Counted from the first letter of the stretch, positions 22,272 to 44,567 are shown. The stretch: DNA of 64,000 nt from Trueperaceae bacterium (GCA_020431825.1 JAGQHN010000014.1:1-64000); one strand, 5' to 3'. A program made the numbers and translations. The notes: generated from the sequence alone by a model not told the origin.

Positions 22272-23192
22272 TTAGTTCAATCTAGCAAAAACCCCAAACT
22301 CATCAGCATTTTCTGGTGTCACCAGTTCGCAGTCAAGCGATTGCTTTTCTTCCGCAGGTAATTCCCCTGTGCGAATATAAGTATCGGCCTGATTGACAGC
22401 TTCTGCAGCCAGAACCGCAGCAGGCTGTAAAACTGTTGCCTGAATTTTACCTTCTTTAATGGCGGCAATAACATCTGGGCTACCGTCAAAGCCAACAACA
22501 ATCACGTCATTCTTACCAGCAGCAGCCAGCGCAGCCTGCGCACCTAAAGCCATAGTGTCGTTACCAGCAATCACACCTTTAATGTCTGGGTTAGCTTGCA
22601 AAATGGTTTCCATTTTTTCAAAGGCTTCGGTTTGGCTCCAGTTGGCACTTTGTTGAGCAACCAACTCCATGTCAGGGTATTGACCGATAACATCGTTGTA
22701 TCCCTGTGAACGAATACCGGCATTGGTATCTGACTCTTTACCCACAAGCTCCACATATTTGCCTGACTCACCCATTAGACGCACAAATTCTTCGGCACCT
22801 AAAGTAGCACCCTGATAGTTGTTTGAAACAATTTGAGCAGCAGCTACGCCAGTAGCATTAATTTCACGGTCAATCAAAAAGCTGGGGATACCTGCATCTT
22901 TGGCTTTTTGTACAGCAGCAATAGAAGCGTCTGCACCCGCATTATCCAGAATAATGGCAGCCGCACCCTGAGCAATTGCCGTGTCAAAAAGCTGGTCTTG
23001 TTTGGCAGCGTCATCATCATGGGTTAAGACAAGCGTTTCATAGCCCAGTTCTTTGGCCCTTGCATCAGCAGCGTCAGCCTCAGCCTTGAAAAAGGGGTTG
23101 TCATGTGACGGGGTAATGATGACAATAAGCTTAGCTTGAGCAAGACTTAAACCAAAAAGAGCCACTATAACCAACACTAAAATTTTTTTCAT
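22272..23192 (-). CDS. Sugar ABC transporter substrate-binding protein (RbsB-like)
   Basis: A 306-aa periplasmic-binding-protein type 1 with signal peptide [20 protein letters not shown]. Hallmarks of the ribose/pentose group are [38 protein letters not shown] and [16 protein letters not shown]. It should bind a pentose-like sugar outside the membrane for the CUT2 transporter encoded just upstream. In this locus the likely ligand is D-apiose or a related branched pentose; that is inference from context. It is last in the operon and closest to a strong terminator. AAGGAG precedes the ATG. Confidence 0.9.
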
Positions 23193-23294
23193 ACCTTTTC
23201 TCCTTGATGTGTTAACTATTCACTAATTTGAAGCCAATTGTTGGCCCTGGCTCCTCGAGCCCATTCCATCTATCCTTATAAACCCTCCTTCTGG

Positions 23295-42285: not shown

Positions 42286-43233
42286 ATGGAAGATGCCGAA
42301 GAGTTGCGCCTTGTTACCAAAGTTGCCAGCCTTTACTATGAAAAAAATTTGCGTCAGGCCGATATTGCCTCGCAACTTGATTTGTCACAAGCTGGCGTGT
42401 CGCGACTCTTAAAACGCGCCAAAGAAGAAAATATTGTGCGCATTACGGTAGCGCAACCTTTGGGTGCTTATACCCGGCTCGAGCAAGACATCGAAACTCG
42501 CTACGGCATTAAAGAGGCTATTGTCGTAGATAGCGGTAGTAGTGACGCTCAGCTGCTGCGCAACCTTGGTGCTGCCGCCGCCTATTATCTGGAAACTACT
42601 CTTAAACCTAGCGAAGTTATTGGCATCTCGAGTTGGAGCGAAACGCTGCTAGCCATGACCAATGCCATGCACCCTGTTCCCACCAAAAATGCCAAGGTTG
42701 TGCAAATTTTGGGCGGCGTTGGTAACCCCAGTGCAGAATCTCACGCAGCCCATTTGACCCGTCGACTGGCAAATCTCATTGGGGCGCAGAGCGTTATGCT
42801 TTCTGCGCCCGGCGTGGTTGCCTCAAAAAGCGCCCGAGACATTTTGCTGGCTGACCCCTTTGTGAGCGAGGCTATCGGACTTTTTGATCAGGTCAGTCTG
42901 GCGCTGGTCGGTATCGGTGCCCGTACCCCCTCAAAAGTCCTGGCCAGCAGTGGCAATGTCTTTTCTGATGAAGAGCTCGAGACTCTGAGCAAACAGGGCG
43001 CCGTTGGCGACATCTGCCTGCGCTTTTTTGATGAAGCGGGTAAACCCGTGCTGTCAAGCTTTGATCAGCGTGTTATCGGCATGACCCTAGAAGAGCTTAA
43101 AGGGGTCAGGCGCAATGTAGGTATTGCTGGAGGAAAGCGTAAATATGCCGCCATTAAAGGAGCCCTCGAGGGCAACTGGATAAATGTGCTTATCACCGAC
43201 AAGGGTAGTGCCGAGTATTTGCTCAAACCTTAA
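42286..43233 (+). CDS. SorC/DeoR-type sugar-binding transcriptional regulator
   Basis: A ~315-aa regulator: N-terminal helix-turn-helix (about 20-50: NLRQADIASQLDLSQAGVSR) and a C-terminal sugar-phosphate-binding domain (GISSWSETLLAMTNAM, VVQILGGVGNPSAESHA, LALVGIGARTPSK). Such proteins respond to phosphorylated sugars, here perhaps the kinase product. I prefer the ATG at 42286 because of the TATACT box; an ATG at 42280 overlaps that region. It follows the kinase gene by 59 bp and probably controls the TTGAATA-type palindromes upstream. Its stop overlaps the convergent glycosidase gene. Confidence 0.85.
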   Translation: MEDAEELRLVTKVASLYYEKNLRQADIASQLDLSQAGVSRLLKRAKEENIVRITVAQPLGAYTRLEQDIETRYGIKEAIVVDSGSSDAQLLRNLGAAAAYYLETTLKPSEVIGISSWSETLLAMTNAMHPVPTKNAKVVQILGGVGNPSAESHAAHLTRRLANLIGAQSVMLSAPGVVASKSARDILLADPFVSEAIGLFDQVSLALVGIGARTPSKVLASSGNVFSDEELETLSKQGAVGDICLRFFDEAGKPVLSSFDQRVIGMTLEELKGVRRNVGIAGGKRKYAAIKGALEGNWINVLITDKGSAEYLLKP

Positions 43234-44567
43234 GCCTGTCCGGGTGGCAAATAATTAGCAGCTTTGTCATCCAGCACCAGAACCCAGTCAGGACCATCGG
43301 TTGGAGTGGTGAAGGTTAGTTTGTCGAGTTTGGGAAATGAGGCTATTTCCTGACTCGAGCCTGTTCTGGGGTTATACCACCAGGCAACTAAGGTATCACC
43401 TGAAAGTTGAGCGGTGTTAACCCTAAACTTTGTATAAAGCGGTAAATAGATAAAGGCGTAGCTGCCTGACTCATCTCGAGTTGCTACCGGATATTCATGG
43501 CGACCTGTAGATAAATAGTCAAGTAAGCTTTGATCGGGTTGGCGCACAAACTGAGGACGTGACTCGATAAGTTTACGCAAATAGCGCAGTTGCTCGGCAG
43601 CAGGCCGCCTCAGGGCGTCTTGCCAGCAAATCAGCTCATTGCCATTATTGATAGGCTGACGTTTAGGGTCATACATCTGCCAGACAAAATGATGTCCATA
43701 GGTCACGCCACAGCCTCCGGCAAAAACGGAGCGGTAACACTGTTTGCGCACATCATGGTCGCGAAAATAGCCATTTTCAGGGTTCCAATTTGGCCAGGGA
43801 TTCACTGGATGATCTTCATAATTAGGTTCAGCGTCTAAGCTTGGGCGAATGGGGCTTAGCTCCCAGTCTCGAGCTATCCAGTTCCACACCGGATAGTCAT
43901 GCCCGGCACCGTGACCCGACTGCATCATATGAATATCAAGCCAGTCCTCTTCCTGTAACGTTGCGGAGGTCCAGCTACTGCCAGAAGGATGGTAGGTCAT
44001 TAAGGTTTTGGAATCATGTTCTTTTATACCAGAGGCTATAGCGCGCCAAACTGGACGGAAGTCCTGCCCTTCATAAACCGGAGGACGGTCACCCCCAAGG
44101 CACCAAATGAGATGGCTATGTCTGGCAAAACGCTTCCCTACAAACTGTCCGTAAGCGAAGGCATTTTCAGGGGTGAAAACAGGCTGATTCTTAGTCCACA
44201 TCGGAAAAACCTTGTGGCCCCAGGTTGGCAAAACTGCAATATAGAGTCCATACTTAAGCGCAAGCTCGAGGTAGGCATCTACCCTATCGAAATAGGCCAA
44301 ATTGGGTTTTAGAGGATCATCATCATAGAGAGCCTGCCCACCGTTGTAGGCTTCAAAAAGGGCGTCATGTTCTGAAATCAGCACTGCTTGTATAACCGTA
44401 AAACCTTGCTGAGCCCGCGTAGCAAAATAATGCTCAGCCTCCTCATAACTCAAAAGATGAAAGAGATTCCAGGCAGTATCGCCTAACCAGAAAAAAGGTG
44501 CGCCACTTTCAGTTTGCAAATAATGCCGATTTGCACTAAGACTTAAGCGCTCGAGTCCATTAGTCAT
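43230..44567 (-). CDS. Apiosidase-like glycoside hydrolase (DUF4038/GH140-type), paralogue
   Basis: A 445-aa predicted cytoplasmic glycosidase, clearly paralogous to the 28.0-29.3 kb gene: FFWLGDTAWNLFHLLSYEEA, GFTVIQAVLISEH, VLPTWGHKV, IWCLGGDRPP, SLDAEPNYEDHP and a C-terminal beta domain ending WVLVLDDKAANY. Two copies in one locus suggest different linkages or substrates. It runs convergently to the regulator gene (4-bp overlap). GAGGATAAC precedes the ATG. Confidence 0.8.
   Translation of the reverse strand: MTNGLERLSLSANRHYLQTESGAPFFWLGDTAWNLFHLLSYEEAEHYFATRAQQGFTVIQAVLISEHDALFEAYNGGQALYDDDPLKPNLAYFDRVDAYLELALKYGLYIAVLPTWGHKVFPMWTKNQPVFTPENAFAYGQFVGKRFARHSHLIWCLGGDRPPVYEGQDFRPVWRAIASGIKEHDSKTLMTYHPSGSSWTSATLQEEDWLDIHMMQSGHGAGHDYPVWNWIARDWELSPIRPSLDAEPNYEDHPVNPWPNWNPENGYFRDHDVRKQCYRSVFAGGCGVTYGHHFVWQMYDPKRQPINNGNELICWQDALRRPAAEQLRYLRKLIESRPQFVRQPDQSLLDYLSTGRHEYPVATRDESGSYAFIYLPLYTKFRVNTAQLSGDTLVAWWYNPRTGSSQEIASFPKLDKLTFTTPTDGPDWVLVLDDKAANYLPPGQA

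Follow-up and report, generated by a model that had tools for sequence, protein, structure and literature searches.

A probable D-apiose import and catabolism island in a Deinococcota genome that combines an isomerase, an SDR pair and an Opp-glycosidase unit

Introduction

The closest described system to the locus reported here is the non-oxidative D-apiose route of Pectobacterium and other Enterobacterales, which runs through ApsI, AplK and AptA/AptB (Carter et al., 2018, as cited in PMC13001218). A related gene set with apsI occurs in Pectobacterium carotovorum, a species that grows on D-apiose, and E. coli strains that carry aplK, aptA and aptB and no apsI also grow on this sugar; growth of E. 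coli ST131 on apiose without the isomerase is left as an open question, and a pair of SDR proteins has been proposed as the apsI replacement in E. coli growing on apiose (PMC13001218). Among glycosidases, BT1012, the founder of family GH140, is a demonstrated beta-apiosidase of rhamnogalacturonan II (PMC7939467).

We analysed a 64,000-nucleotide stretch of DNA from a Deinococcota genome (Trueperaceae bacterium; GCA_020431825.1 JAGQHN010000014.1:1-64000), referred to below as the window, which lies on one contig of a 5.63-Mb assembly (338 contigs, ~94% complete). Ribosomal protein L2 scored 457–465 bits against ten solved chains, with entries of Deinococcus radiodurans and Thermus thermophilus at the top, and 367 bits or less against every other chain; on this basis we assign the host to the Deinococcota. 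We conclude with considerable confidence that the region from 22272 to 44567 is an island for D-apiose import and catabolism, which would feed free D-apiose and small apiose glycosides into the pentose phosphate pathway. The island resembles the non-oxidative enterobacterial pathway in its importer with a DUF2291 protein, isomerase family, kinase clade, two-subunit transketolase and SorC-type regulator, but it adds three predicted cytoplasmic glycosidases, an Opp-type importer and an SDR pair, and its host belongs to the Deinococcota. The chemistry is known and its arrangement is new, in that the isomerase occurs together with the SDR pair and the Opp importer forms a unit with a glycosidase.

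Results and discussion

Two divergent units make up the island

The island is organized as two divergent units (Table 1). In the minus-strand unit, which runs from 36645 to 22272 with neighbouring genes joined by 4-base overlaps or separated by gaps of at most 102 bases, the Opp-type binding protein is followed by two permeases, two ATPases, the DUF5060/DUF5605 glycosidase, a GH140 glycosidase, the isomerase, the DUF2291 lipoprotein, and the ATPase, permease and binding protein of the CUT2 importer. The plus-strand unit (37121–43233) encodes SDR1, SDR2, the N- and C-terminal transketolase subunits, the FGGY kinase and the SorC-type regulator, and a second GH140 gene on the minus strand is convergent with it. 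An earlier note, made from the sequence of the window, had listed parts of this region; profile searches recovered every part that it named, confirming the CUT2 and Opp importers, the isomerase, the split transketolase, the FGGY kinase and the SorC regulator. The two SDR genes and the gene for the DUF2291 lipoprotein were absent from that list. Elsewhere in the window, molybdenum hydroxylase genes (FAD-binding subunit, large subunit and XdhC-type maturation protein) lie immediately right of the island at 47929–53372, and a protein of the glutamyl/glutaminyl-tRNA synthetase type with a fused C-terminal GatB/YqeY domain is encoded at 7014–9335.

Table 1. Features of the island, with positions counted from the first letter of the window. 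L009 and L014 are two Chloroflexota-labelled genomes.
Feature	Position	Strand	Evidence
CUT2 solute-binding protein, D-apiose type	22272..23192	-	PF13407; best solved relative 5ibq/4ry0
CUT2 permease	23295..24356	-	PF02653; 54-61% identity to enterobacterial cluster permeases
CUT2 double ATPase	24353..25876	-	ABC_tran twice; 50-53% identity to enterobacterial cluster ATPases
DUF2291 lipoprotein of CUT2 importer	25873..26514	-	PF10054, 184 bits
Ketol-isomerase, proposed D-apiose isomerase (ApsI)	26529..27971	-	PF02952
GH140-type apiosidase, predicted cytoplasmic	28014..29348	-	PF13204 389 bits + PF12904
DUF5060/DUF5605 glycosidase, divergent apiosidase-like, predicted cytoplasmic	29407..30942	-	PF13204 61 bits; 4n0r 414 bits
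Opp-type ATPase 2	30939..31934	-	PF00005 + PF08352; 77% identity in L009, 69% in L014
Opp-type ATPase 1	31931..32887	-	PF00005 + PF08352; kept in L009/L014
Opp-type permease C	32884..33708	-	PF00528; kept in L009/L014
Opp-type permease B	33705..34706	-	PF00528 + PF19300; kept in L009/L014
Opp-type solute-binding protein, signal peptide	34753..36645	-	PF00496; 67-69% identity in L009/L014
16-nt palindrome TTGAATATTTATTCAA (TTGAATA-WW-TATTCAA), candidate SorC operator	36861..36876	+	Divergent promoter region
SDR1 dehydrogenase	37121..37885	+	65% identity to E. coli SE15 ECSF_RS02670; 76% to D. gobiensis cluster gene
SDR2 dehydrogenase, likely start 38064	37989..38849	+	60% identity to E. coli SE15 ECSF_RS02675
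Second palindrome copy, 1 mismatch	38928..38943	+	Just upstream of transketolase pair
Transketolase N-terminal subunit (AptA-like)	38969..39805	+	PF00456; 50% identity to E. coli aptA
Transketolase C-terminal subunit (AptB-like)	39802..40755	+	PF02779 + PF02780; 44% identity to E. coli aptB
FGGY kinase, proposed apulose kinase (AplK)	40748..42226	+	Kinase tree; glycerol-pocket residues changed
SorC-type regulator	42280..43233	+	PF04198; 44% identity to enterobacterial cluster regulators
Second GH140-type apiosidase, predicted cytoplasmic	43230..44567	-	PF13204 360 bits + PF12904; 8t9w 340 bits

The isomerase is a regular partner in apiose-type clusters

Clusters of Klebsiella, Rahnella and Sodalis share with the island the binding protein, DUF2291 protein, ATPase, permease, SorC regulator, both transketolase subunits, isomerase and kinase, at 42–65% identity (~30% for the DUF2291 protein). 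The isomerases of these clusters, recovered in a protein search of plasmids, were 51–52% identical to that of the island. A genome scan (GTDB) with the window isomerase returned 548 relatives, and we kept the best 80 of the 548 loci, which are the top matches to a window-seeded query rather than a random sample. Among these best 80 loci, read over at most 10 kb and often on truncated contigs, we counted 65 with the C subunit of the transketolase, 64 with the kinase and 52 with the binding protein. The isomerase loci comprise dozens of clusters from at least five phyla, spanning Acidobacteriota, Bacteroidota, Verrucomicrobiota, Planctomycetota, Chloroflexota and others. The earlier note had allowed that this protein might be a different solution for the isomerase step; because the same cluster neighbours recur in most of the best 80 loci, with the transketolase N subunit in 67, we regard it instead as the usual isomerase of apiose clusters. 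From its gene position, it probably corresponds to the assayed Pectobacterium ApsI. Isomerases with 53–61% identity are also encoded in other genomes of the same family (loci L094, L095 and L096), with no kinase or transketolase gene in the stretch read, and in G011 and G020, genomes of this group, the transketolase N subunit is encoded on other contigs.

The protein had been placed by eye in the fucose/arabinose isomerase superfamily, and an AlphaFold model (pLDDT 86, 22 sequences) agreed, its fold matching L-arabinose isomerases (TM 0.80) and also L-fucose isomerases. This likeness of fold contrasts with the sequences, which were 12–13% identical to those of L-arabinose isomerases in the structural alignment, and a PDB sequence search with the isomerase gave no match at E 0.01. 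Residues E311, D335, H450 and H451 are invariant. The 24-residue spacing between E311 and D335 equals that of the metal ligands of L-fucose isomerase, which the island protein also resembles in its C-terminal His residues, and E311, D335 and the histidines may thus have metal-ligand roles.

The kinase and transketolase group with apiose-cluster enzymes

The phylogeny of the kinase had been set beforehand as a test of the D-apiose reading, and the window kinase did not group with xylulose or glycerol kinases. In a maximum-likelihood tree, it fell in a clade with E. coli SE15 AplK and the cluster kinases (100/99) and was set apart from GlpK (96/86), with which another kinase of this genome grouped; its nearest relatives were kinases of isomerase-type clusters. 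The window kinase keeps GlpK residues R83, E84, W103 and D245 and has Y135 changed to L, F270 to S and DQQ to DSH. All sampled cluster kinases have S at the position of GlpK F270 and DSH or DSQ versus DQQ or DQH in GlpK, and Y135 is lost in the window kinase and its nearer relatives. We considered a pathway for glycerol, dihydroxyacetone or erythrulose, in which the kinase would be a glycerol kinase and the remainder of the island coincidental. General profiles do give it that name, its best PDB relatives are glycerol kinases, and its NCBIfam score of 576 bits exceeds the GlpK subfamily cut-off of 498. The equivalog cut-off is missed, however (564 versus 590 bits), and the tree and the pocket residues lead us to reject a glycerol kinase, so that this pathway is very improbable.

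The transketolase N subunit grouped with that of D. gobiensis (94/90) among apiose-cluster subunits, apart from full-length transketolase and from another kind of Deinococcota split transketolase, in a tree with some long-branched rows whose placement is unsure. At the level of sequence, the gene set and the kinase tree lend good support to the proposal of the earlier note that D-apiose is catabolized by the isomerase, kinase and transketolase route.

Proposed pathway and its control

Homology, gene order and trees show to which families the proteins belong and which genes are conserved together, and the glycosidases are predicted to be intracellular. In the pathway that we infer from them, the CUT2 importer would take up free D-apiose, and the Opp importer would take up apiosides, to be cut by the three cytoplasmic glycosidases. 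The isomerase would convert D-apiose to apulose and the FGGY kinase would convert apulose to apulose 4-phosphate. With glyceraldehyde 3-phosphate as the acceptor of a two-carbon unit from apulose 4-phosphate, the split transketolase would then form dihydroxyacetone phosphate and xylulose 5-phosphate. The SDR pair probably provides a second way to apulose, by reduction to apiitol and re-oxidation, or an entry for apiitol.

SorC would control both divergent units, and the two copies of the palindrome are candidate operators. At up to two mismatches, the window holds 2 such sites versus 0.10 expected, for a pattern picked after it had been seen, and once three mismatches are allowed the site count does not stand out from chance; the palindrome therefore remains a lead.

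The importers and glycosidases point to apioside uptake and intracellular cutting

The CUT2 binding protein scored 445 bits against 5ibq and 4ry0, and the next structure scored 226 bits. We take 5ibq to be the structure of a Rhizobium etli protein in complex with D-apiose; a literature search for this structure and the R. etli gene found no ligand statement. A Rhizobium binding protein 75% identical to that of the island lies near oiaX, whose product is annotated as acting in the oxidative apiose route.

Three apiosidase-like glycosidases had been claimed for the island. Two of them are full PF13204/PF12904 proteins, whereas the DUF5060/DUF5605 protein is a distant relative. For both full enzymes, 8t9w (named Apiosidase) is the top match among solved structures, and BT1012-type structures come next (352 bits for 8t9w and 239 bits for 3kzs/5msy with the enzyme at 28014–29348). 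They share with GH140 apiosidases full-length similarity and a two-domain layout, and the D of GGD and the E of DGEP/DAEP, which we take to be the catalytic residues of GH140, align with BT1012-type structures. The third enzyme departs from GH140 in having ANE in place of GGD and extra DUF5060 and DUF5605 domains, and belongs to the 4n0r type. A literature search combining GH140 and apiose gave no match. PF13204 genes are rare in the phylum, occurring in 5 of the 111 genomes of our phylum-level comparison set, and the three in the island are the only ones in the whole assembly.

In agreement with the earlier note, no signal peptide was recognized on any of the three glycosidases, each of which has 3–5 open codons upstream of its start and no hydrophobic N-terminus; the isomerase also lacks a signal peptide, and both solute-binding proteins have one. 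In this respect, and in their position beside an ABC oligomer importer, the island enzymes differ from the GH140 apiosidases BT1012 and 8t9w. All five Opp genes and the DUF5060 glycosidase gene lie beside the isomerase gene in the two Chloroflexota-labelled genomes of Table 1, the MAGs NAT117 (62–79% identity) and OHK40 (51–73%), and a sister genome (G001) has four Opp genes and the DUF5060 glycosidase gene there (82–92%) on a contig that ends before the fifth. Together with the missing signal peptides, conservation of this unit beside the isomerase supports uptake of apiosides followed by intracellular cleavage, as had been proposed, and gene order suggests that the Opp system is an apioside importer paired with an intracellular glycosidase. 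The unit thus predicts uptake of whole apiosides, and it suggests a substrate class for DUF5060/DUF5605 glycosidases, a family annotated without a function.

The sequence does not show that the island is specifically for breakdown of rhamnogalacturonan II, the source named in the earlier note; a search of the ~94%-complete assembly found no GH28 polygalacturonase. Such specificity would accord with the activity of BT1012 and with five GH78-type rhamnosidase matches elsewhere in the genome, but the glycosidases are predicted to be intracellular, and apiose is present in other plant compounds, including apiogalacturonan and phenolic glycosides. We judge it improbable, and the apiose could equally well come from small apiosides or remnants of side chains as from rhamnogalacturonan II.

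The isomerase and the SDR pair have near-exclusive distributions

The SDR-type cluster of E. coli ST131 and Klebsiella (SE15 ECSF_RS02670–02715) resembles the island in its SDR pair, kinase, transketolase, importer and regulator, but is without isomerase and glycosidases. Its SDR pair, to which SDR1 and SDR2 of the island are 65% and 60% identical, is the one proposed to take the place of apsI (PMC13001218). Both SDR genes, with no isomerase gene seen nearby, occur in clusters of E. coli, Klebsiella, Deinococcus gobiensis, Shinella, Sinorhizobium and Roseateles, and in Caballeronia SDR2 is accompanied by another first SDR. The pair was present in 629 of 5426 E. coli genomes, and Klebsiella isomerase DNA had no match in these 5426 genomes. 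Among 50 isomerase-carrying genomes, SDR1 was found in none (E 1e-75) and SDR2 in one (E 1e-85). The exception is a Lacunisphaera MAG (L084, 2617–3462) in which SDR2 (71% identity) lies directly upstream of the isomerase gene with no SDR1; SDR2 alone can accompany the isomerase. Within the 111 phylum genomes, SDR1 was confined to this genome and its sister, both of which also carry the isomerase. SDR-type and isomerase-type clusters interleave in the kinase tree, which requires at least three changes, and in Enterobacterales the two types occupy neighbouring branches. This distribution fits a functional exchange at one step, in which the isomerase and the SDR pair stand in for each other and this genus has retained both, although the rhizobial SDR-type clusters have a different importer and perhaps another substrate, so the exchange is not proven. 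A broader reading, possible but on balance doubtful, is that the SDR pair, converting apiose through apiitol to apulose, replaces the isomerase as a non-homologous, redox-neutral system, that the two have been swapped several times and occur together in this genus, and that the DUF5060/DUF5605 glycosidase is a new apioside-cutting enzyme with its own Opp importer.

The use of another importer by the rhizobial and D. gobiensis clusters of SDR, transketolase and kinase genes also speaks against the apiose reading of the plus-strand half, which may therefore serve a related substrate. Taken further, the island could consist of two merged operons, with a minus-strand unit (CUT2 importer, isomerase and glycosidases) for D-apiose and a plus-strand unit originally for a polyol such as apiitol or another branched sugar. 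In D. gobiensis, Shinella, Sinorhizobium and Roseateles, the plus-strand set is served by another CUT2 importer and no isomerase was found, and the grouping of the window transketolase N subunit with D. gobiensis points the same way. We nevertheless consider a merger rather unlikely: neither a kinase nor a transketolase is encoded in the minus-strand unit, the window kinase is nearest to kinases of isomerase-type clusters, and E. coli has the SDR pair with a DUF2291-type importer in a cluster whose carriers grow on D-apiose. For hamamelose as an alternative branched sugar, a literature search gave no catabolic gene set for comparison.

Returning to the preferred reading of a D-apiose island, its gene content and the rarity with which isomerase and SDR pair occur together elsewhere make the proposed replacement directly testable with purified proteins. 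In Sinorhizobium meliloti Rm41, the SDR-type cluster (L102, 1–5385) is flanked by genes for ribB, fructose-6-phosphate aldolase, transketolase and triose-phosphate isomerase, and ribB also lies beside the SDR-type cluster of Roseateles (L107).
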